A stretch of DNA of 20,237 bases from a virus. This document shows, piece after piece, positions 2,614 to 10,717 of the stretch. Within the stretch, counting starts at the first letter, position 1. Every line of letters begins with the position of its first letter. Made by a program: the position numbers and the translations under genes. The notes under the pieces are model-generated. The model saw only the letters and a list, made by a program, of their open reading frames with translations, was not told the origin of the DNA and did not search any database. The stretch spans positions 1 through 20,237 of the IMG/VR virus record IMGVR_UViG_3300025168_000896. The stretch is one strand, 5' to 3'.

Positions 2614-2820
2614 ATGGTAAAAGTAACAATTTTAAATCAGACAGGACACACAGAACTTGATTTGTCGGCAGACGAAGCAATTCAGCAAATTTTGGACCAC
2701 CCCACACACTGGGCTTACATTAATGGTGAATTGGTTTCTCACGAAGAAATCGCAAATATGAACGCAGAAGACATTACAGATGTAGTGCTAACTCAAGCAA
2801 TTGTTGGAGGTTGCTATTGA
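2614..2820 (+). CDS. Ubiquitin/ThiS/MoaD-like beta-grasp protein with C-terminal Gly-Gly-Cys-Tyr
   Basis: The 68-residue product reads as a beta-grasp fold: strand 1 VKVTILNQ (2-9), strand 2 HTELDLS, helix ADEAIQQILDH (about 19-29), a strand with the ThiS/MoaD-like YINGELV (35-41), then a final strand DVVLTQAIVGG leading to Gly65-Gly66. ThiS, MoaD and ubiquitin-like modifiers end in GG and are adenylated by an E1-type enzyme; here two extra residues, Cys67-Tyr68, follow the GG, so trimming would be needed before activation. The same strand encodes an E1-like protein (9051-9608) and a JAMM protease (9624-10358), the expected activator and trimming enzyme. A strong GGAGGAATAAAT ribosome-binding leader precedes the ATG. 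Fold and motif are seen by eye; conjugation or sulfur-carrier function is inference. Confidence 0.72.
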   Translation: MVKVTILNQTGHTELDLSADEAIQQILDHPTHWAYINGELVSHEEIANMNAEDITDVVLTQAIVGGCY

Positions 2821-2926
2821 ATAGGTAATCTTCTGTTACCAACCTAAATTGCAGGTATAGCAATTACCCAACTTGGGTCTAAAAAGTACAGTTTCGGGTC
2901 TGTTCAAAACCCGCCTTTTTTATTTT
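2821..2926 (+). ncRNA. Four-hairpin non-coding element, possible structured RNA
   Basis: Between the beta-grasp gene and the ATG at 2941 lies the longest untranslated stretch in the window. It contains four consecutive inverted repeats: GGTAA/TTACC (2824-2828 with 2836-2840), AATTGC/GCAATT (2847-2852 with 2860-2865), ACCCAA/TTGGGT (2866-2871 with 2873-2878) and CGGGT/ACCCG (2895-2899 with 2909-2913), then a T-run. No start codon with a good ribosome-binding site occurs inside. It could be a small RNA, a 3'-end processing element or a regulatory leader for the next gene; the sequence cannot separate these. Confidence 0.45.
2895..2926 (+). terminator. Hairpin plus T-run terminator candidate
   Basis: A CGGGT/ACCCG stem with a 9-nt loop is followed two bases later by TTTTTTATTTT (2916-2926). 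Archaeal transcription often terminates on T-runs, with or without a hairpin, and this one falls in the only sizeable gap between tightly packed genes. It would separate the left block of small genes from the tRNA/reductase block. Confidence 0.55.
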
Positions 2927-2940
2927 AATTGAGGATTGTT

Positions 2941-3306
2941 ATGACAATAAAAATGCCGTGGAGAGCCGAATACTGGCCTAAAATAATAGATGAACTTACA
3001 TTAAAGAATAAAAAAGAGAAAGATAATGGTGGTTGGCCCTATTTTTACGATAGAAACCGGATTCTAAGAGAACAATTAGAAATATCAGGTGAAATTAATT
3101 CAATGCACCGAAATAATAACTATGTATATGTTAACGACAGTAGAATTATAGTTAGTATTATCGAAGCGTGGAACACTTTTGACGATTACTCTCTAAAAGA
3201 TTTTACTAGAAGGATGAAAGCATATGAAAGAGTATATATGCACAAAGTAATTTACGATAAAAGAAAGGAGGAATTCGATGCACTGGACTCTGAAACTAAT
3301 TCTTGA
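2941..3306 (+). CDS. Hypothetical protein, 121 aa
   Basis: I prefer ATG 2941, 6 nt after GAGG (2931-2934), over the in-frame TTG at 2929. The N-terminus contains MPWRAEYWPKIIDELTLKNK and the middle LREQLEISGEINSMHR followed by YVYVNDSRIIVSIIEAW; the protein is charged and mixed alpha/beta, without a motif I recognise. It is the first gene after the hairpin and T-run element, so its expression may be controlled there. It overlaps the next gene by 29 nt. Confidence 0.6.
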   Translation: MTIKMPWRAEYWPKIIDELTLKNKKEKDNGGWPYFYDRNRILREQLEISGEINSMHRNNNYVYVNDSRIIVSIIEAWNTFDDYSLKDFTRRMKAYERVYMHKVIYDKRKEEFDALDSETNS

Positions 3307-3610
3307 TTTACCTAAAGCAATTCTTGAATTTAGAAGAAATCACATAAAGGCCGCCCGTCTTCATAAAATTGAAAAGAAACACGGGTCGATTGCTGGGTTT
3401 AAAGCCATGTTAGAAGACCCTGAATTTTCTCATGCTGAGGAACACATATACATGGATATGTTGCCTGAAATTTTAGAATGTAAAGACGATTATTCATTTT
3501 CAGAAATAGAATGGTTTCTCAGCAAAGGTGAAGAATACGGTGTTTTACAAAGAGTAGATGATATGCCTGTTGAACCCGATGAAAGTTGGAGGAAGTGGGA
3601 AGAAGAATGA
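3278..3610 (+). CDS. Hypothetical protein, 110 aa
   Basis: ATG 3278 follows AAAGGAGGAATTCG, an excellent ribosome-binding site located inside the end of the previous gene. The product has a hydrophobic/basic N-terminus (MHWTLKLILDLPKAILEFRR) then an acidic helical remainder ending SWRKWEEE. No family recognised. It is immediately followed by the tandem tRNA genes, only 7 nt downstream. Confidence 0.6.
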   Translation: MHWTLKLILDLPKAILEFRRNHIKAARLHKIEKKHGSIAGFKAMLEDPEFSHAEEHIYMDMLPEILECKDDYSFSEIEWFLSKGEEYGVLQRVDDMPVEPDESWRKWEEE

Positions 3611-3617
3611 ATAACTT

Positions 3618-3692
3618 GGGCATATGGTGTAATGGATAGCATTTTGGCCTTCTAAGCCGAAGATTCGGGTTCGATTCCTGATATGCCCGCCA
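3618..3692 (+). tRNA. tRNA-Arg (anticodon TCT)
   Basis: Full cloverleaf by eye: acceptor GGGCATA/TATGCCC, D arm GTGT/GCAT with a GG-containing loop, anticodon stem TTGGC/GCCGA with loop CTTCTAA (anticodon TCT), T arm TCGGG/CCTGA with loop TTCGATT, discriminator G and a genome-encoded CCA at 3690-3692. It reads AGA, a codon used heavily in this AT-rich sequence. It is separated from the next tRNA by only 2 nt. Confidence 0.93.
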
Positions 3693-3694
3693 AT

Positions 3695-3769
3695 GGACAA
3701 TTAGCATAGTATGGTTAATGCCTCCGGCTCATAACCGGAAGACCATCGGTTCAAATCCGATATTGTCCA
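3695..3769 (+). tRNA. tRNA with CAT anticodon (Met elongator or AUA-reading Ile2)
   Basis: Cloverleaf: acceptor GGACAAT/ATTGTCC, D arm GCAT/ATGC, anticodon stem TCCGG/CCGGA with loop CTCATAA, T arm ATCGG/CCGAT with loop TTCAAAT, discriminator A. CCA is not fully encoded (CCT follows). The anticodon stem lacks the GGG/CCC run of initiator tRNAs, so it is not an initiator. A CAT anticodon may be tRNA-Met or an Ile tRNA whose C34 is modified to read AUA; sequence alone does not decide. Confidence 0.9.
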
Positions 3770-3772
3770 CCT

Positions 3773-3791
3773 TTTCGAGGTAATTAAAATG
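3773..3791 (+). repeat. Post-tRNA ribosome-binding cassette, copy 1
   Basis: TTTCGAGGTAATTAAAATG runs from just after the CAT tRNA into the start codon of the next gene. A second copy at 4365-4383 after tRNA-Leu matches at 17 of 19 positions. Both contain GAGGT and the ATG, so they act as translation start regions as well as possible tRNA trailers. Confidence 0.6.
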
Positions 3792-3971
3792 ATGATAAAA
3801 TGTTTTAACTGCGATACAGTATTAATACTGAAGAAGACCCTACGGGGTTATAGAATATGTAAGTGTTGTAACTTGCAGGTTGATAATAATATCAACCAAA
3901 TTTATGCAACAGAATGGAAATTTATCGCCATCAAAAAGGATAAACAAATAATTTGGAGGAATATAATATGA
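3789..3971 (+). CDS. 60-residue zinc-ribbon-like protein
   Basis: Start at ATG 3789 (or the adjacent ATG 3792), preceded by CGAGGT. The product has CFNCD near residue 5 and CKCCN near residue 25, a compact four-cysteine zinc ribbon, then a polar C-terminal half. It sits between the tRNA pair and another cysteine-rich gene, and overlaps that gene by 4 nt. No family recognised. Confidence 0.6.
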   Translation: MMIKCFNCDTVLILKKTLRGYRICKCCNLQVDNNINQIYATEWKFIAIKKDKQIIWRNII

Positions 3972-4261
3972 TGAAATATAAAAAATTTGTAAGTAAAAAT
4001 AAGAGAAATGTGCAAGAAGTTCTTGGGACCAGATTGGAACTAAAGAAACCGTGGGCAAATTGTGAAAGACAACTTTGTGCTTGTTCAAAGCCAGATGCTC
4101 CCGTTTTCCGTTATCAATGTGAAAATGGTGGAGGCTGTGGAACTTTTCAAAGAATGGATTTTGGTTGCTATCGACTCGCTGTTGGTAAAGCACCAGTAAA
4201 AGTTTGCGAAGATTCATGTCCTTGTAACTGTCACCCCAAAGTTGAAGGTGAAGAAGAATAA
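3968..4261 (+). CDS. Cys-rich protein with about ten cysteines, 97 aa
   Basis: ATG 3968 is chosen because it follows TTTGGAGGAATATAAT. After a basic N-terminus, cysteines occur in clusters: CERQLCAC, CENGGGCG, a single GCY, and near the end CEDSCPCNCH. This many cysteines suggests two or more metal sites, probably zinc. No family recognised. The gene lies between two tRNA loci, typical of a variable cargo slot in viral genomes. Confidence 0.6.
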   Translation: MMKYKKFVSKNKRNVQEVLGTRLELKKPWANCERQLCACSKPDAPVFRYQCENGGGCGTFQRMDFGCYRLAVGKAPVKVCEDSCPCNCHPKVEGEEE

Positions 4262-4264
4262 TTG

Positions 4265-4366
4265 AATAATAAGGGCGGGGTTCCCAAGTACGGTCAAAGG
4301 GGCCGGGCTTAAATTCCGGTGCGTATTGCTTCGTGGGTTCAAATCCCACCCCCGCCACTTATTATT
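4265..4366 (+). repeat. Inverted repeat flanking tRNA-Leu
   Basis: AATAATAAG at 4265-4273 is a perfect 9-bp reverse complement of CTTATTATT at 4358-4366. The two arms directly flank the mature tRNA, leaving only discriminator A4357 unpaired, so the primary transcript could extend the acceptor helix by 9 bp. Confidence 0.7.
4274..4357 (+). tRNA. tRNA-Leu (anticodon TAA)
   Basis: Acceptor GGCGGGG/CCCCGCC, short D arm CCC/GGG with a GGTCAAA-type loop, anticodon stem CCGGG/TCCGG with loop CTTAAAT (anticodon TAA), a long class II variable arm, T arm GTGGG/CCCAC with loop TTCAAAT, discriminator A. CCA is not encoded. It reads TTA, a favoured codon in AT-rich genes. Confidence 0.93.
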
Positions 4367-4383
4367 TCGAGGTGATTAATATG
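4365..4383 (+). repeat. Post-tRNA ribosome-binding cassette, copy 2
   Basis: TTTCGAGGTGATTAATATG, 17 of 19 identical to copy 1 at 3773-3791, again placing GAGGT and ATG immediately after a tRNA gene. It also provides part of the tRNA-Leu trailer arm (CTTATTATT). Confidence 0.6.
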
Positions 4384-4698
4384 AATAATAGAAGATTAAA
4401 ACTACATGAAAGACCAGCACCTGCTGTTGGTAATAATAAACACGCAAATACTATCCGCAATATAGTTCATTTAATGGACATGTATGGTGGACAAGCAAAT
4501 ACTTTAGATATATATTACTGGTTAAATGATAATACCAAATACGGAGTGCCAATGACCGCTCTCATAAATGTATTATCAAAAGGGCCATTTATATCCGTTG
4601 GTAAAGAGTCAGCCACCAACGCATTAGCAGTAAAAAGAATGGTTAAAGTTTGGAAAGTAAAGGTTGATAAAGTAGAAGAAAGGAGTGAAAAAGCATGA
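4381..4698 (+). CDS. Small winged-helix-like protein, 105 aa
   Basis: ATG 4381 follows CGAGGTGATTAAT. The region HANTIRNIVHLMDMYGGQAN followed by TLDIYYWLNDNTKYG resembles a helix-turn-helix/winged-helix start, and the chain continues with SKGPFISVGKES and VKVWKVKVDK strands. Layout parallels the 80-residue protein at 2067-2309. The basic C-terminus fits nucleic-acid binding. It overlaps the reductase start by 4 nt, so it could be co-regulated with or regulate that gene; this is inference. Confidence 0.5.
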   Translation: MNNRRLKLHERPAPAVGNNKHANTIRNIVHLMDMYGGQANTLDIYYWLNDNTKYGVPMTALINVLSKGPFISVGKESATNALAVKRMVKVWKVKVDKVEERSEKA

Positions 4699-6572
4699 AT
4701 AAAGAAACAGACATTTTAAGCGACATTACAGTTCACATGAAGTATGCCAAGTATCAAAAAGACCTTTTACGAAGGGAAACTTGGGAGGAACTATGTAATA
4801 GAAACATGAATATGCACATTCAGCATTACCCTCAACTTGAGGGAGATATACGAAAACTATACGAAAACTATGTGTTGAAGAAGAAAGTATTACCTTCAAT
4901 GCGTAGTCTACAATTTGGTGGAAAGTCAATTGAAATTTCACCAAACCGTATCTACAACTGTGCATATATGCCTGTTGATTCTTTGGAATGTTTTTCCGAA
5001 GCCATGTTTCTACTTCTTGGTGGAACTGGTGTTGGTTATTCTGTTCAAAGACACCATGTTGAAAAGTTGCCTGAAATCCGAAAGCCAAATCCTGAGAAAA
5101 AGCGACGATATTTAGTCAGTGATTCTATTGAAGGTTGGGCAGATGCAGTTAAGATTCTATTGAAGGCTTACATGGGACAAAATCTAAGCACTCCGGTATT
5201 TGATTACTCAGATATTAGAGTCAAGGGTTCTCTATTAGTTACAAGTGGTGGAAAAGCCCCCGGACCTGCTCCCTTGCGTGAATGTTTAGTTAAGATTGAG
5301 AATCTTTTGTTGGCAAAACCTGATGGTTATTCGTTGAGACCTATTGAAGTTCACGACATGATGTGCCATATTGCAGACTCAGTTCTTGCAGGTGGTATTC
5401 GTAGAGCCGCATTAATTTCATTATTTAGTGCCGATGATAAAGATATGATTTCATGTAAAAGTGGAACATGGTGGGAACAAAATCCTCAACGAGGGAGAGC
5501 AAACAATTCAGCAGTTTTAATTCGTAACCGTGTAACAAAACCATTCTTTTTACAACTGTGGAAAAGAATTCAAGAGTCTGGTGCTGGAGAACCGGGGATT
5601 TACTTTAGTAACGACAAAGATTGGGGAACTAATCCTTGCTGTGAAATTGCACTAAGACCATATCAATTCTGTAACCTTACAGAAATTAACGCTTCATCAG
5701 TAGAATCGGAATTAGATTTTTATGGTCGATGTGAAGCCGCCGCACTCTTGGGAACTATTCAGGCTGGTTATTCTGATTTCCATTATTTGAGAGATTGTTG
5801 GAGAAAAGCAACAGAAAAAGATGCACTTTTGGGTGTAAGTATGACAGGAATTGCTTCAAATACTTATGAAAAACTTGGTGTAAATCCTGAAACTTTATTG
5901 ACTTATGGGACAGAAATTATCAAGAAAACTAATATAATATTTGCAGAAAAAATTGGAATAAAACCTGCAAGTAGACTGACATGTATCAAACCTGCTGGAA
6001 CAACTTCCTTAGTTCTGGGAACTTCGTCAGGAATTCACGCTTGGCATGATGATTTTTATATCCGCCGTATTCGTGTTGGAAAGAATGAAGCAATTTATTC
6101 TTATCTTGCTAATGAACACCCTCAACTTGTTGAAGATGAATACTTCTCGCCACATGATACAGCGGTAATTAGTATTCCTCAAAAAGCACCCGAAGGTTCT
6201 ACAACTCGTAAAGAATCGGCACTTTCGCTTCTTGAAAGAATCCGTTTGTTCTCAAAGACTTGGGTTCGTAATGGACATGTTGATGGTATTAACACACATA
6301 ATGTTTCTGCTACGGTTTCACTTCGAGAAGGAGAATGGGATTTTGTGGGAGAATGGATGTGGAATAACCGTGAATACTATAATGGACTTTCAGTTCTTCC
6401 TTATGACGGTGGAACATATAAACAAGCACCGTTTGAAACAATCACCGAAGACGAATACAATGAACTTGTAGGAACTTTGAATAAGGTAGACTTAACACAG
6501 ATAACTGAACTTGAGGACAATACAGACCTTAAGGGAGAAATTGCTTGTGCTGGTGGAGTCTGTGAAATTTAA
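4695..6572 (+). CDS. nrdJ: Class II (adenosylcobalamin-dependent) ribonucleotide reductase, monomeric type
   Basis: This 625-residue enzyme would reduce ribonucleoside triphosphates to dNTPs, using adenosylcobalamin as radical source. The key residues of the Lactobacillus leichmannii RTPR are all visible with the right spacing: NCAYMP with Cys89 (RTPR C119), NPCCEI with Asn313, thiyl Cys315 and Glu317 (N406, C408, E410), Cys326 eleven residues later (C419), and the C-terminal relay pair Cys618/Cys623 in CAGGVCEI (C731/C736). It also has MRSLQFGG and LLLGGTGVGYSVQ. It is shorter than RTPR (739 aa), with 226 rather than 289 residues between the first and catalytic cysteines. The start is supported by AAAGGAGTG. 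The cofactor must come from the host. The residue after the catalytic cysteine is Cys where Gly or Ala is usual. Confidence 0.95.
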   Translation: MNKETDILSDITVHMKYAKYQKDLLRRETWEELCNRNMNMHIQHYPQLEGDIRKLYENYVLKKKVLPSMRSLQFGGKSIEISPNRIYNCAYMPVDSLECFSEAMFLLLGGTGVGYSVQRHHVEKLPEIRKPNPEKKRRYLVSDSIEGWADAVKILLKAYMGQNLSTPVFDYSDIRVKGSLLVTSGGKAPGPAPLRECLVKIENLLLAKPDGYSLRPIEVHDMMCHIADSVLAGGIRRAALISLFSADDKDMISCKSGTWWEQNPQRGRANNSAVLIRNRVTKPFFLQLWKRIQESGAGEPGIYFSNDKDWGTNPCCEIALRPYQFCNLTEINASSVESELDFYGRCEAAALLGTIQAGYSDFHYLRDCWRKATEKDALLGVSMTGIASNTYEKLGVNPETLLTYGTEIIKKTNIIFAEKIGIKPASRLTCIKPAGTTSLVLGTSSGIHAWHDDFYIRRIRVGKNEAIYSYLANEHPQLVEDEYFSPHDTAVISIPQKAPEGSTTRKESALSLLERIRLFSKTWVRNGHVDGINTHNVSATVSLREGEWDFVGEWMWNNREYYNGLSVLPYDGGTYKQAPFETITEDEYNELVGTLNKVDLTQITELEDNTDLKGEIACAGGVCEI

Positions 6573-6795
6573 GAAGAAACACTCACTGATACCAATTGAT
6601 ACTGTTATGAAGGATGGGGAACCTCGTAGCAATAAACAAATAATATCAGCAGTAATAGATTTGCCTACGCATGGAGGGCGAATACGAAGAATAATACCTA
6701 CTACACAGGAGGTAGCCATGTATGTAAAAAATAACCCAAAGTATGAAAAAGTAAATGAAAAAGGAGATGAAAAAATATGGAAGATGAAAATATAA
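6562..6795 (+). CDS. Hypothetical basic protein, 77 aa
   Basis: I place the start at GTG 6562, after GGTGGA and overlapping the reductase stop by 11 nt; ATG 6607-6609 would be the shorter alternative and an upstream ATG at 6511 seems too far into the reductase. The product is basic (KFKKKHSL, GGRIRRIIPTTQEVAMYVK) with no recognised family. Its position directly behind the reductase suggests co-transcription. Confidence 0.5.
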   Translation: MKFKKKHSLIPIDTVMKDGEPRSNKQIISAVIDLPTHGGRIRRIIPTTQEVAMYVKNNPKYEKVNEKGDEKIWKMKI

Positions 6796-6977
6796 TTTTT
6801 AGAGTGACGAGTTTTAAATCAAACGGTTCTGTTTGGACAAAGACTTACGAAGATGAACAGAAATTACTTGAGGTATTACCGGTTTTATATAACCAGTTTC
6901 CCCATGTAATGGTTAGCAGACAAACATTAAGGAAGCCTCATTTGGAATACCTTAAGGAACTGGGGGATAAAGTATGA
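6777..6977 (+). CDS. Hypothetical protein, 66 aa
   Basis: ATG 6777 follows AAAAAGGAGATGAAAAAAT and overlaps the previous gene by 19 nt. Mixed alpha/beta with FRVTSFKSNGSVWTKTYEDE then QKLLEVLPVLYNQFPHVMV; no family recognised. Short, but the ribosome-binding site and the ATGA junction to the next gene support it. Confidence 0.55.
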   Translation: MEDENIIFRVTSFKSNGSVWTKTYEDEQKLLEVLPVLYNQFPHVMVSRQTLRKPHLEYLKELGDKV

Positions 6978-7213
6978 GAATCGAATTTCACATTGTAGAT
7001 GATGCCGAACTACCACCAATTACTATTGCTATGGATAACGAAGCCCTACACCCTGTTTTGTTTATTAACAATCATCATCGCATTTGGTTGGGATTGATGA
7101 GAAACGCAATACCGGGAATGGCACAACAAATGCAAGAGAAACTTACACTTCTATGTGACGGTTTCTTGAAAGAACAGATTAGATTTGCACAAGAGGATGA
7201 AGAACATGAGTGA
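6974..7213 (+). CDS. Hypothetical protein, 79 aa
   Basis: ATG 6974 overlaps the upstream TGA (ATGA) after GGGGGATAAAGT. The product begins with a beta stretch MRIEFHIVDDAELPPITIAM and ends with a helical acidic tail (AQEDEEHE). No motif recognised. It overlaps the next gene by 8 nt. Confidence 0.55.
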   Translation: MRIEFHIVDDAELPPITIAMDNEALHPVLFINNHHRIWLGLMRNAIPGMAQQMQEKLTLLCDGFLKEQIRFAQEDEEHE

Positions 7214-8483
7214 TGAAAAACTAAAAAATAGAGTAATAAAGGTTAGACATGTGGGAGGGAATTGCCACCAAGTAGTGTTATCTACTCGTGCAAGACAATT
7301 AACTACCTTTATGTCCACAGTTTCTACTCATACTGAATATATCGGCCACCGGTATTATAGGCGACATAATAGCAACGCCCATTCAGTGAGAGAAGGAAAC
7401 GACCAAACAGTTAATTACTTTGGAAAAGCGTGTGTCAAAATATTAAATAATGCCTTTAAGAGAGCAAATACATTTGCTTTCTTTAACGCTTACGGCACTC
7501 TCATCTTTCAAAAATTGGATAAGAAATACTTCCTTAACGGCAACATGTTAACCAAGACAAAATTAAATTCTGTTTTGCCAAGTATTTTGATGAGATTACC
7601 TATCGTAAAAGACTCAGAAAAATTTGATATTTTCGTGGATAACATTTTAACTACCGACCCAGTAATTACCTCGGCTATTGTAAATAAAATAGAATATACA
7701 TTCTACGACAATGGGGCAAAAGTTGTGACACTTCTAAATGTAGAGAAGACGGGAAGGGAAAGGTCTGCTATCGAGTTATATGAGGGACTTTGGGTTGATT
7801 TCAAAGACTCTCAAATGAAATCTTTCATCAACTCGTGTAAAGGTAATAAAAATAAGTTCTTAGCAATAAGTCCTGAAGAACTATACTACCTCTCTCGTGG
7901 GGAATTTTTATCCCCGTTAGAAATTAAAACGGTGTATGCTTTCTTGGAACAGAATCGCAAGTCTTCATTAGTGGAAAAGCGTAGTATGGAATTGTTTAAA
8001 GACCTTACAGAAAGGTTCAAGGGTAAAATATTTGAAAAGGCGATGATTGTTGATGATGACAAAAAACAATGTATGGCTGTAAAAGGAAAACAGTTAGATT
8101 GGATAGTCGTAGATAGGGGTTATAAAGCGGGTAGGCAAGATGTTTCTACATATTTAATAATCCCTACAAGTAATTTTAAGTATGAGCGTAGTCGTAAAGT
8201 CTATATCCCTCTTGGAGAAACACAGGGTTTGAATAATTTGAATATTAATAATGTATGGTTTGACAAATCCAATAAGAACAAATACCTTCTTCTCGGACCA
8301 ATATGTATCGACCAAGCACATACGGGTATTTCAATTGGAGACCAATTTGCTGCAAGGTCTATGGCATTACTAAACGATGTCCATAGTTTTGAACAAGTAT
8401 CTACGCTAAGAGGGTATGCAAAAATGAAACCTGTTGATAGGATTGATTGGGATGCCGTGTCTACTTTGTTCCGGAAGCAATAA
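7206..8483 (+). CDS. Unidentified 425-residue protein
   Basis: The start at ATG 7206 (GAGGATG upstream, overlapping the previous gene) is preferred over the in-frame ATG at 7185. It is one of the largest genes here and I cannot place it. Visible features: a His/Arg-rich N-terminal region (HTEYIGHRYYRRHNSNAH), LNNAFKRANTFAFFNAYGTL, a central FIDVFVDN-like hydrophobic strand region, YYLSRGEFLSPLEIKTVYAF, and a C-terminal LLLGPICIDQAHTG segment. No P-loop, nuclease DEK or polymerase motif is evident. It overlaps the TFB-like gene and leads into the E1/JAMM pair, so it may belong to that unit. Confidence 0.75.
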   Translation: MSDEKLKNRVIKVRHVGGNCHQVVLSTRARQLTTFMSTVSTHTEYIGHRYYRRHNSNAHSVREGNDQTVNYFGKACVKILNNAFKRANTFAFFNAYGTLIFQKLDKKYFLNGNMLTKTKLNSVLPSILMRLPIVKDSEKFDIFVDNILTTDPVITSAIVNKIEYTFYDNGAKVVTLLNVEKTGRERSAIELYEGLWVDFKDSQMKSFINSCKGNKNKFLAISPEELYYLSRGEFLSPLEIKTVYAFLEQNRKSSLVEKRSMELFKDLTERFKGKIFEKAMIVDDDKKQCMAVKGKQLDWIVVDRGYKAGRQDVSTYLIIPTSNFKYERSRKVYIPLGETQGLNNLNINNVWFDKSNKNKYLLLGPICIDQAHTGISIGDQFAARSMALLNDVHSFEQVSTLRGYAKMKPVDRIDWDAVSTLFRKQ

Positions 8484-9054
8484 ATTCAACAAAGAGATAA
8501 ACCTCTATGTTTGTCAGAGTTGTAACTTAATCAATGTATCGAGGATTATGGAGATAAATAATTCCGTTACAGTGGACAGAAATTTAGTCGAATTATCATT
8601 ACTTTGTAGTGAATTTAATATAGAAAAAACAGAAGAAATTAAAAAAATGTTTCGTTCATCTTATGTTGCCCTTCTCAAGGGTAATTATACTATGTCGGAA
8701 CTATCAGTAGCAGTAGTGTTCCTTAACAACAAGTCGCTCAACATAGCAAAGTTGGGCGGCTTCATGGGGGTTAAAACACGCAGGGCTAAAACCGTTGTTA
8801 AAAGATTACAGGATATTTTCAACATAGACTTAGTTTATTCAGTTGAAGAGGCGCATGAATTCTGTGATACACATAATTTGAATGCGAAGGAAAAAATTAC
8901 GAATGTATCTAAAGACATGGAACTTACAAAAGAAGTTCTAATGTCTTGTATATATTTGGCTACCGATTTGTCACACGGTAAGGTAGCAGAAATGTTTCAT
9001 GTAAGTGGAAATACTGTGTGGCGACATGTAAAAAAAATGGAGGAATATGAATGA
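8452..9054 (+). CDS. Minimal TFB (TFIIB)-like transcription factor
   Basis: The 200-residue product starts with a zinc ribbon, Cys3-x2-Cys6-x14-Cys21-x2-Cys24 (MPCLLC, then YVCQSCNLI), the N-terminal signature of TFIIB/TFB, which recruits RNA polymerase to TBP-bound promoters. The remainder fits two degenerate cyclin-like repeats: about residues 45-115 (LSVAVVFLNN, then GVKTRRAKTVVKRLQDIF) and about 125-200, closing with YLATDLSHGKVAEMF and VSGNTVWRHVKKM, like the helix-turn-helix of the second TFB repeat. Host TFBs are about 300 residues; the B-reader/linker is almost absent. ATG 8452 is preferred over an in-frame TTG at 8434 since the ribbon begins immediately after it. It overlaps the upstream gene by 32 nt. 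Could redirect host polymerase to viral promoters. Confidence 0.72.
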   Translation: MPCLLCSGSNKFNKEINLYVCQSCNLINVSRIMEINNSVTVDRNLVELSLLCSEFNIEKTEEIKKMFRSSYVALLKGNYTMSELSVAVVFLNNKSLNIAKLGGFMGVKTRRAKTVVKRLQDIFNIDLVYSVEEAHEFCDTHNLNAKEKITNVSKDMELTKEVLMSCIYLATDLSHGKVAEMFHVSGNTVWRHVKKMEEYE

Positions 9055-9608
9055 AAAAAAATAAAATAATGATTATTGGATGCGGTGGAATTGGTTCTTT
9101 TCTAATCCCACTACTTGACCGAGTAGCGATGTATGACATTACGGTTTATGACCCCGATGTTGTAGAGACAAAAAACCTAACATATCAAAACTTTGATTAT
9201 GATGATGTAGGAGTAAATAAAGCAGAAGCACTATCACAAAGATTTAACTTTGAACCTCAACCCTATAAGGTTCTTACACCTTCTCAAATTGAAGGTTACG
9301 ATTTAGTTATATGCTGTGCTGATAACTTAGATGTGCGAAAGATGCTTTATAAATCGGGTATTAGATGGCTTGATTTGAGAGCGCAGGGTCGAGCCGGTTT
9401 GCTTGTAAGTTCGGATGAAGACCCTAAACTTTACACGACATTAACAGCAGGGCCGGAAGGTTCTTTTTCATGTCAAGGTGATAATTGGGATAGAAGTAAT
9501 CAAGGAGTTCACTTTACTCATGTAGCGGTTGCAGGTTATGGCGCACAATGGGTTCAAAGATTCTTTGCTGGAGATTATACTCCAAAACATATTATGGTGA
9601 ACGCATAA
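9051..9608 (+). CDS. ThiF/MoeB/E1-like protein, minimal form
   Basis: The Rossmann nucleotide-binding motif GCGGIGS is at residues 10-16; the acidic adenine-ribose strand is YDPD (Asp34, Asp36), followed by Asn42, Gln46, Lys57 (GVNKAEAL), and Asp91...Arg96 in the CCADNLDVR segment, all in the order known for E1-type activating enzymes that adenylate the C-terminal Gly of ubiquitin-like, ThiS or MoaD proteins. The usual NLxRQ arginine is Tyr45. Cys141 in SFSCQG is the best candidate catalytic cysteine. At 185 residues it is shorter than MoeB/ThiF (about 250) and lacks the CxxC zinc sites. ATG overlaps the TFB stop (ATGA) after GGAGGAATATGA. It is followed 15 nt later by the JAMM protease, so they form a pair. 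Confidence 0.82.
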   Translation: MKKNKIMIIGCGGIGSFLIPLLDRVAMYDITVYDPDVVETKNLTYQNFDYDDVGVNKAEALSQRFNFEPQPYKVLTPSQIEGYDLVICCADNLDVRKMLYKSGIRWLDLRAQGRAGLLVSSDEDPKLYTTLTAGPEGSFSCQGDNWDRSNQGVHFTHVAVAGYGAQWVQRFFAGDYTPKHIMVNA

Positions 9609-9623
9609 AGAGGATGATGAAAA

Positions 9624-10358
9624 ATGGATAAAATAGTAAGAGAAGAAATAATTGGACACGAAGAAGAAGTTACTGAGGACATGGTAGATTTATTCTACGA
9701 AACTTGGGAACCCCAAACAGATGCAGAATACATCGACGAATTGGTTATCAACTCAAGGTATGAAGTTGTAGCAGTAATTCGTGAAGAAAATAACACTGAT
9801 TGGGTTCAAGAAACCCTACAAACTTACGGTGCTAAAGTTGAACCTAAATACGAAGGTGGGGCTATGAGTTCCTTTTTCCGTGGAACAGAACCAAAAGGTC
9901 CACTAAATGTTCAACATACAGATATTCCTGCTGAAGTCTGGCAAAAAGAAATCAATGAAGTTTGGGGACATTTATTGCGAAAAGGAGAAGATATTCCTCG
10001 TGACCGTAGATTTTTAGATGCAATTTGGAATGCTTCTACCAGTATTTTACCGGGTCTTGAAGTATCAGTTATTGTAGACCGTAAAGGAAAACTATTTATG
10101 AATAGTGGGAGTCCGGGCTATGTAGATTATGGTGGAGTAAATGTTACAGGAATGAGTATTCCTATCCGTTGTTGGATTCATACTCATCCCTTTGGCTATG
10201 CCTTTTGGTCTGGAACAGACAATAGAACTTTGCGTAACTGGCGACCAATTAATAAGGAAGCAATTGTTATCGGAAAGGGGGAACATATGATATGGGAGAA
10301 AACACAAACAGGGGAAAGAATGACGAAGATAGTAGACCGAGAAGCCTTCGAGTTGTAA
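9624..10358 (+). CDS. JAB/JAMM-motif metalloprotease
   Basis: The JAMM signature is intact: His186-Thr-His188-Pro, then six residues, Ser196-Gly-Thr-Asp199 (HTHPFGYAFWSGTD), with Glu146 in LEVSVIV as the probable general-base glutamate 40 residues earlier. JAMM proteins are zinc isopeptidases/peptidases that remove or trim ubiquitin-like proteins. The JAB domain fills the C-terminal 110 residues; the first 130 residues are acidic and unassigned (EEEVTEDMVDLFYETWEP). It has AGAGGATGATGAAAA as ribosome-binding site and follows the E1-like gene by 15 nt. Likely partner: the GG-CY-tailed beta-grasp protein at 2614-2820. Tail-assembly JAB proteins are an alternative but no tail gene lies here. Confidence 0.85.
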   Translation: MDKIVREEIIGHEEEVTEDMVDLFYETWEPQTDAEYIDELVINSRYEVVAVIREENNTDWVQETLQTYGAKVEPKYEGGAMSSFFRGTEPKGPLNVQHTDIPAEVWQKEINEVWGHLLRKGEDIPRDRRFLDAIWNASTSILPGLEVSVIVDRKGKLFMNSGSPGYVDYGGVNVTGMSIPIRCWIHTHPFGYAFWSGTDNRTLRNWRPINKEAIVIGKGEHMIWEKTQTGERMTKIVDREAFEL

Positions 10359-10717
10359 GGTTTCCTACATTTGGTGATAGAGAAATTGAGTGTCCCGTAT
10401 GCGAGGGAAATAAATGTATCGTATGTAATGGAACAGGATTTTTTGAAATAAGTGGTGAAGTGTGGGCGAGTATTCAACAGCCGCATATAGTTCAATATGT
10501 GCATGATAACTTGCCTACACTTTCTAAGGAATACAATACTATGTATGGTTCCGGAATGATTATGAAAACATTGGGCATTCTCAAAAAGAATTGGGAAGTA
10601 TTAGAGGTCAGTAGTCTAATAGGTTCAATGTGGATATGTATTAATATCCAAACTGCTGAAACAAAACACTTTTATAAAGAAGGAGGACTGAAAAAATGGT
10701 TAGTATTAGAGAAATAA
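10292..10717 (+). CDS. DnaJ-type zinc-finger protein, 141 aa
   Basis: Residues 34-49 (CPVCEGNKCIVCNGTG) form a CxxC-x4-CxxCxGxG cluster like one zinc site of the DnaJ cysteine-rich domain; there is no J domain. The rest (KEYNTMYGSGMIMKTLGI, SSLIGSMWICINIQ) is unassigned. ATG 10292 follows GGGGGAACATATGAT but overlaps the JAMM gene by 67 nt, which is long for this window; no better in-frame start exists before the cysteine cluster. Proximity to the chaperonin genes is suggestive but 3 kb away. Confidence 0.65.
   Translation: MGENTNRGKNDEDSRPRSLRVVRFPTFGDREIECPVCEGNKCIVCNGTGFFEISGEVWASIQQPHIVQYVHDNLPTLSKEYNTMYGSGMIMKTLGILKKNWEVLEVSSLIGSMWICINIQTAETKHFYKEGGLKKWLVLEK

Follow-up and report, generated by a model that had tools for sequence, protein, structure and literature searches.

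Gene sets that unite a ubiquitin-like protein (Ubl), an activating E1 enzyme and a JAMM protease are known from cells, and some of the bacterial ones act against phages. The SAMP system of archaea has a beta-grasp modifier ending in Gly-Gly, a single E1 and a JAMM protease with no dedicated E2, and its conjugation works with the E1 only. Here we analyse a set of similar composition in viral DNA. The window, as we call the whole stretch studied, is 20,237 nt long (IMG/VR virus record IMGVR_UViG_3300025168_000896, positions 1 to 20,237) and carries genes for a predicted ubiquitin-like modifier of 68 aa, a minimal E1/ThiF-like adenylating enzyme and a JAMM metalloprotease of 244 aa. The resemblance to archaeal SAMP/UbaA/JAMM1 lies in the beta-grasp modifier with its Gly-Gly, the single E1 and the JAMM protease, with no recognised E2. 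The differences are that this set is encoded by a virus, that its E1 has just 185 aa, and that the viral modifier has no sequence match to the SAMP family in the libraries used; the viral E1 scores 29.9 bits versus 450 for the NCBI model of SAMP-activating E1 (UbaA-type).

In bacteria the type II CBASS, Bil, PRTRC and class 6 operons likewise combine Ubl, E1 and JAMM (PMC1779556, for some of these). The viral set differs from them in having no recognised E2, in a modifier gene lying several genes away, and in its viral location, not in a host defence island. Against the PRTRC ThiF model its E1 reaches 49.3 bits, with a cut-off of 144.75. A phage-encoded Ub-like domain accompanied by a JAB domain occurs in TAPI and the JAB-containing TAPK of lambda and T1; these lie among tail-assembly genes and no E1 is described with them in the available part of PMC1779556, whereas the genes studied here stand in a replication cluster and include an E1. 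Lambda-type TAPI/TAPK and the deSAMPylases of Borg elements (PMC12660748, likewise available in part) are the nearest parallels from mobile elements that we met. The viral trio appears to belong with the prokaryotic Ubl-E1-JAMM sets, and not as a member of SAMP, PRTRC, CBASS or Bil.

An earlier sequence-only reading of the window had proposed these three open reading frames (ORFs), and they are indeed found together on the plus strand: the modifier at 2614..2820, the E1 at 9051..9608 and the JAMM protease at 9624..10358. The gap between E1 and JAMM is 15 nt, and the modifier lies 6.2 kb upstream of E1. The modifier and E1 genes each have a GGAGG 7 bases ahead of their start codon. The modifier has the C-terminus AIVGGCY, in which Gly65-Gly66 is followed by Cys-Tyr. 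Its homologues were gathered by scanning IMG/VR and from related loci, which gave 47 distinct sequences, window excluded. Gly-Gly was kept in 47 of 47, as the sequence-only reading had expected, in a sample chosen with a 68-position profile that itself contains Gly-Gly. What follows it is free to vary: no residue in 7 homologues, one in 8, two in 28 and four to nine in 4, so that 26 tail variants of 0-9 residues were counted, the missing tail being one of them. At both Gly-Gly positions all four glycine codons are in use, and the constraint therefore acts on the protein. Other residues invariant in an alignment of 39 sequences are N8, G11-H12-T13, I26, H29-P30-T31, W33, L59, A62 and V64.

The AlphaFold2 model of the modifier has the element order b-b-a-b-b-a-b as in the beta-grasp, with a predicted local distance difference test score (pLDDT) of 82.4, a predicted template modelling score of 0.65 and low confidence in the tail from residue 66. 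The beta-grasp fold claimed from the letters is thus borne out as a predicted fold. The VIA fold comparison (50 rows) includes TtuB, MoaD, SAMP2, SUMO, Ufm1, ThiS and ubiquitin variants at middling Z of up to 4.7; SAMP2 with P. furiosus JAMM1 is among these matches. The window modifier alone matches no Pfam, PHROGs or PADLOC family and has one NCBIfam line at an E-value (E) of 0.1. When 39 members were scanned one by one, Pfam gave 11 families, including weak ThiS and PinA lines, and PHROGs gave three weak lines.

The E1 protein is recognised by Pfam ThiF with 59 bits (cut-off 28.1) and has GxGGIGS at residues 10-16, in agreement with the earlier assignment to an E1/ThiF-like family. In 55 of 55 sequences this motif is invariant together with D34, D36, N42, Q46, K57, D91-N92, R96 and the WLDLR-Q-R motif. 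We take the MoeB-type catalytic residues to be N, R, Q, K and D. In the viral family N42, Q46, K57 and D91 are invariant, and the arginine of NLxRQ is replaced by Tyr45 in at least 90% of sequences (alignments of the 55 sequences and with MccB). The zinc site of MoeB/ThiF consists of two CxxC pairs, and some E1s do without it; the 185-aa sequence contains no CxxC and therefore no zinc pairs of this type. A further invariant residue (55/55) is Cys141, within SFSCQ (codon 9471-9473). The structure model of E1 has a pLDDT of 87.5, and its sole long low-confidence stretch, residues 136-151, contains Cys141; this could be a mobile loop with a catalytic cysteine. The nearest solved fold to the model is UBA5 (E 6.6e-11), followed by AclA, Cap2, the NEDD8 E1, ThiF and MoeB. 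UBA5 is the E1 of a protein modifier.

In the third protein the motif E...HxH-x7-S-x2-D, formed by E146, H186, H188, S196 and D199, is invariant in 58 of 58 sequences (the window and 57 of 67 distinct homologues), and the claim of an intact JAMM motif holds throughout the family. The N-terminal part is variable and the catalytic core constant. The window protein matches Pfam Prok-JAB weakly (E 0.053; 13.8 bits, cut-off 25), and 51 of the 58 aligned members match it at E <= 1, with a best value of 2.2e-4. Against PDB, the family profile finds AMSH-like deubiquitinases (AMSH-LP) first (E 5.6e-5 over 34 positions) and an archaeal Rpn11 homologue next (E 0.028), the matches covering the active-site stretch only. 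From profile and motif we assign the protein as a probable MPN+/JAMM metalloprotease.

How constantly are the three genes found together? The JAMM scan of IMG/VR, of which the best 80 of 229 matches were used, supplied 35 virus records, each 40 kb or longer, with at least one of the genes. The modifier was present in 32 of them, E1 in 33 and JAMM in 34. Every absence was near a contig end (modifier in G010, G025 and G026; E1 in G026 and G033; JAMM in G033). RFC was used as another anchor to avoid selecting records by the trio itself. Among 16 RFC-anchored records the modifier was found in 5, E1 in 11 and JAMM in 11. Six of these (G036, G038, G040, G046, G047 and G048) carry JAMM and E1 (truncated in G036) but no modifier, on contigs that end 0-5.7 kb upstream of E1. 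None of the trio occurs in G037, G042 and G045 (contigs of 27, 19 and 11 kb) or in G049 and G050 (about 101 and 109 kb). In G010, G025, G033, G040 and G047 about 3.7, 2.8, 3.9, 4.6 and 5.7 kb are left before the contig end, more than the smallest distance between modifier and E1; their absences are likely due to contig ends as well.

A wider RFC scan (best 80 of 416 matches) gave 22 records of at least 67 kb. Nineteen of them, which share G049 and G050 with the 16-record set, were counted as RFC-anchored: all three genes were present in 5, none in 14, and a partial set in 0. The other three (G015, G018 and G029) have all three genes. Thus E1/JAMM pairs without the modifier, which would speak against the proposed link, occur only on the contigs ending close upstream of E1 and in none of the 19 large records. 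ThiF of any kind (PF00899) was not found in the two trio-less genomes tested. In the RFC tree of 32 rows a branch with full support separates the 18 trio carriers from G049, G050 and 12 further large RFC-bearing genomes without the trio, which offer themselves for comparison. Because the carriers are one clade, the pattern reflects retention as a unit and not repeated gain. Probably there was one gain or one loss of the trio, with no separate loss of any member seen afterwards.

The order modifier-E1-JAMM and the strand are constant in 38 of 38 loci, a count that omits G003 and G021, whose genes lie at opposite contig ends, and G022, which has two copies. The modifier lies 2.3-8.3 kb upstream of E1 (median 5.4 kb), and the matches of E1 and JAMM are 10-1803 bases apart. 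For counts of neighbouring genes, 57 trio loci, chosen for having the trio, were merged to 44 distinct ones and searched by tblastn at 1e-3, which may miss short divergent genes. Most genes between modifier and E1 were found in 2 to 27 of the 44 loci, the exceptions being genes for proteins of 79 aa (42 loci) and 424 aa (44 loci). Measured against the window proteins across the 32 distinct loci with RFC, the modifier has a median identity of 56.9%, E1 of 56.6%, JAMM of 51.2% and RFC of 43.5%; ribonucleotide reductase, present in 27 of the 44 loci, stands above the trio with 68.9%. The trio seems to be kept as core genes on which these viruses depend. A marine virus clade keeps a Ubl-E1-JAMM set as part of its core, with a modifier more conserved than the clamp loader (RFC). 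In one record, G022 (L055, IMGVR_UViG_3300021958_000021, 184,733 bases), two differing copies each of modifier, E1 and JAMM lie about 90 kb apart; it may represent two virus genomes joined in assembly.

What can be read from the sequences is the membership in three families, the catalytic residues, the invariant Gly-Gly with its free tail, and the joint retention. These results support a ubiquitin-like gene system as a gene set, whatever its chemistry. That modifier, E1 and JAMM form one pathway we consider highly probable. We lean, with moderate confidence, towards protein conjugation as its main output, and on balance towards a viral modifier pathway of SAMP/Urm1 type in which attachment is single and reversible. 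For every chemical step, for the target and for the benefit to the virus, the following is what we infer. The modifier would be produced either in mature form or as a precursor whose short variable tail the JAMM protease would cut off, exposing Gly-Gly. The minimal E1 would adenylate the carboxylate of this Gly-Gly. E1 would then take over the modifier as a thioester, probably on Cys141. Lysines on proteins of the virus or the host might then receive the activated modifier, either directly or through a divergent transfer protein, for which the 424-aa neighbour, with its GPICID motif, is the candidate. Later JAMM would take the modifier off again.

Two observations bear on the form of this attachment. 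The modifiers are almost free of lysine (none in 10 of 46, one in 35 and two in 1), against a lysine content of 7.9% in the window genes, and single addition is therefore expected, not lysine-linked chains. In the same count of 46 distinct modifiers, in which starts were trimmed differently from the set of 47 with its 7 tail-less members, 6 already end in Gly-Gly, and all 6 of these loci retain an intact JAMM motif. Since JAMM persists even where trimming is not needed, a role in deconjugation is suggested beyond maturation. If the system does conjugate, it would be a ubiquitin-like system owned by a virus, in which E1 is unusually small and E2 is either missing or of a new kind. This would allow simple reconstitution, and it raises the question of what such a virus must tag.

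Several results weigh against this interpretation. For the modifier, Foldseek matches are weak (best E 0.051, none at or below 0.001), and the top VIA rows are chains of antibody complexes, of the protein L type (4hjg, by inference, with Z 4.7, and 1mhh with Z 4.6). ThiS is matched by 1 of 39 modifiers, at E 0.0014, weaker than the best match to the T4 Lon inhibitor PinA (PF10465), which is found in 8 of 39 at E <= 1 with a best value of 1.4e-4. For E1, ThiF and MoeB fit the fold almost as well as UBA5. Its sequence profile has as nearest solved proteins AclA (1.4e-10) and MccB (9e-10), then UBA5 (4.5e-9) and Cap2. AclA and MccB are not known to be modifier E1s; as they lead the ranking, modifier E1s are not set apart by sequence alone. 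The best NCBIfam model for E1 is ThiF, with 54 bits and a cut-off of 159. Both sequence profile and fold are thus compatible with ThiF-like or peptide-modifying roles. The E2 family UQ_con (PF00179) was found in 0 of 12 large records, in a search that had no positive control and in which 14 control genomes also gave nothing above the cut-off, and none of six other window proteins scanned matched an E1-E2 model of PADLOC. Finally, because the carriers are a single clade on the RFC tree, the all-or-none pattern cannot count as separate evidence that the genes are functionally linked.

The main rival, which we regard as rather unlikely, is a sulfur carrier. Here E1 would adenylate Gly-Gly, a donor of the host would convert it to a thiocarboxylate, sulfur would be delivered for example to tRNA as by TtuB or Urm1, and JAMM would only mature or recycle the carrier. 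The structural matches include ThiF, MoeB and TtuB, ThiF provides the best named NCBIfam lines for E1, and sulfur-linked prokaryotic clusters of ThiS/MoaD, JAB and E1 are described in the available part of PMC1779556. However, in the near relative G001 the Pfam families listed for 92 of the 118 ORFs (25 of 26 families in one list) include no rhodanese, PP-loop thiolase or cysteine desulfurase, although host enzymes could be used. Moreover, JAMM is retained where the modifier has no tail, and its profile is nearest to deubiquitinases. We favour reversible conjugation over sulfur carriage because JAMM stays intact without a tail and because the JAMM profile and the E1 fold lie near deubiquitinases and UBA5.

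Another explanation, clearly improbable in our opinion, is counter-defence against a SAMP-like modification in the host, in which the viral JAMM would strip off the host modifier and the viral modifier and E1 would act as decoy or competitor. Such a role has been proposed for many JAMM-fold proteases in Borg elements of archaea (PMC12660748, in its available part). A decoy, however, would need no E1 with nearly all residues of the nucleotide site conserved, and the clade retains all three genes. We give very little credit to the 68-aa protein being a protease inhibitor like T4 PinA with no relation to the E1/JAMM pair, which would act on something else. It draws on the PF10465 matches and on PHROG 2167 (inhibitor of host Lon protease), found in 1 of 39 members at E 0.0085; the window protein itself, however, matches neither family, and the invariant Gly-Gly ahead of a variable tail and the fixed linkage to E1 and JAMM would be left unexplained. 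T4 PinA may itself be beta-grasp-like. Least credible of all, with a close to negligible chance, are three unrelated genes in a genome inherited as a block, since each part bears features required by the other two and most genes between modifier and E1 come and go, for all that the carriers form one clade and the modifier stands kilobases from E1.

The E1 gene of these viruses has probably been met before. In its available part, the RaFAH paper counts MoeB, of the ThiF family, among the auxiliary genes that are most widespread in genomes of archaeal viruses, and links it to ubiquitination (PMC8276007). This is probably the same kind of E1 gene as in the window; that part of PMC8276007 gives no modifier, JAMM or sequence analysis. 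The earlier description of the trio as an undescribed system therefore stands for modifier and JAMM, of which we found no report, and needs restriction for E1, which alone is in print as MoeB/ThiF. For the trio, the modifier or the viral JAMM we found no published description, with a mention in Philosof 2017 or Zhou 2023, the main magrovirus descriptions, being possible. The library search gave no paper on both magrovirus and ubiquitin. Neither ubiquitin nor JAB nor ThiF is mentioned in the main texts of PMC10160649, PMC5332604 and PMC12999244; in the jumbo-phage paper PMC7824862 the word ubiquitin appears two times with different meanings, and Ubl, JAB and ThiF are absent. In GenBank phages, DNA and protein look-ups found no match for the window DNA, the modifier or JAMM. 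ThiF-like genes do occur in phages: those of crAss-like phages, for example MT774378 47685-48152, are annotated as thiamine biosynthesis or hypothetical protein, with 27-33% identity to the viral E1 (among 40 of 63 records listed). They share with our set the ThiF-like gene, and differ in that the viral Ubl and JAMM are unmatched in the phages collection.

The conserved neighbourhood is not limited to three genes, and here the earlier account has to be extended: the trio holds, and three further conserved genes lie near it, all on the plus strand. The first, at 7209..8483, encodes the 424-aa protein (432 aa from an upstream TTG at 7185), of no known family. The second is the 79-aa gene at 6974..7213, which in some distant members (G068, G064 and G066) lies directly ahead of the modifier, unlike in the window. 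The third, a protein of 141 aa at 10292..10717, overlaps the 3' end of JAMM, is present in 41 of 44 distinct trio loci and has a CPxC-x4-CxxC knuckle. Its CPxCxGxxCxxCxxTG resembles by eye half of a DnaJ zinc finger, and its cysteines are conserved in 64 to 67 of 68 rows. When six trio-less genomes were searched piecewise with profiles, no member of the six families (trio and three neighbours) turned up. In eight trio genomes the same searches found all six, the zinc protein lacking in one, where the stretch may end too soon.

The 424-aa protein has an invariant Cys366 (codon 8304-8306; alignment of 61 sequences) in the motif GPICID. E2 enzymes carry GxICLD around the catalytic Cys. No convincing relative of this protein was found in Pfam (25 of 30 families listed), PDB, PADLOC or PHROGs. 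In a comparison of its profile with E2 by hhalign, the best local match placed GPICID on GSICLD over 7 columns with E 0.066. As high a score was obtained in 0 of 20 and then in 24 of 400 column shuffles, and because of the latter the protein is not claimed as an E2; it is a weak E2-like candidate. Among the Pfam lines listed for ten window proteins, and for 92 of 118 ORFs of G001, there was no E2 family. The earlier statement that no E2 is recognised is thus upheld, with this one weak candidate beside it. A bolder scheme, which seems to us quite unlikely, would make the locus a complete and self-sufficient reversible cascade of modifier, E1, the 424-aa protein as E2-equivalent, JAMM and two small partners, of which the zinc-knuckle protein might serve as substrate adaptor. 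Such a cascade would place the nearly lysine-free modifier singly on replication or transcription proteins during infection and be a core function of the clade, not a host defence.

It is useful to consider the carrier genome. Magroviruses (order Magrovirales) combine replication genes of archaeal type and GroEL/GroES with gene clusters in opposed orientation, in genomes of about 90-110 kb (PMC10768690). The profile of Aoguangviridae by the International Committee on Taxonomy of Viruses (ICTV) lists GroEL/GroES, TFB, RFC-S, PCNA and two opposed gene clusters (PMC10768690). By ORF reading the window encodes ribonucleotide reductase, GroES/GroEL, the RFC small subunit, a RadA/AAA-type ATPase and a PCNA-like protein, of which RFC is also supported by search. 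The archaeal replication genes noted earlier are therefore present, RFC and a PCNA-like protein among them; the carrier itself is now better described as magrovirus-like, the window reading as part of such a genome and as its replication cluster. We say magrovirus-like because the carrier was set against the published description of magroviruses only. Relatives of the window include genomes of 90-96 kb; in a close one of 92 kb, ORF calling gave two opposed gene clusters, with genes for PolB, terminase, capsid and ligase. In a search of phage RFC the matches all had less than 60% identity, with haloviruses first (among 25 of 1067 records listed).

The carrier viruses are marine and probably have archaea as hosts; by resemblance to magroviruses these would probably be Poseidoniales. 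A cellular origin of the modifier in the host was considered and rejected, the genome scan having matched only three contigs of one metagenome-assembled genome (MAG) labelled Altibacter; no cellular home of the modifier was found in that scan, in which Poseidoniales genomes as such were not examined. The contigs of this Altibacter sp. MAG, a bacterium (NZTP01000016, NZTP01000027 and NZTP01000030; L150, L151 and L152), carry different viral modifier copies and are most likely magrovirus-like contigs binned wrongly.

Two other genes of the window may be mentioned. Directly upstream of the modifier, positions 2016-2309 encode a DUF3860 protein (PF12976), above the Pfam cut-off. Between the GPICID protein and E1, the product of 8434-9054 has two CxxC pairs in its N-terminal part and a helix-turn-helix in its C-terminal part, and is perhaps a divergent TFB; it is present in only 17 of the 44 distinct trio loci.

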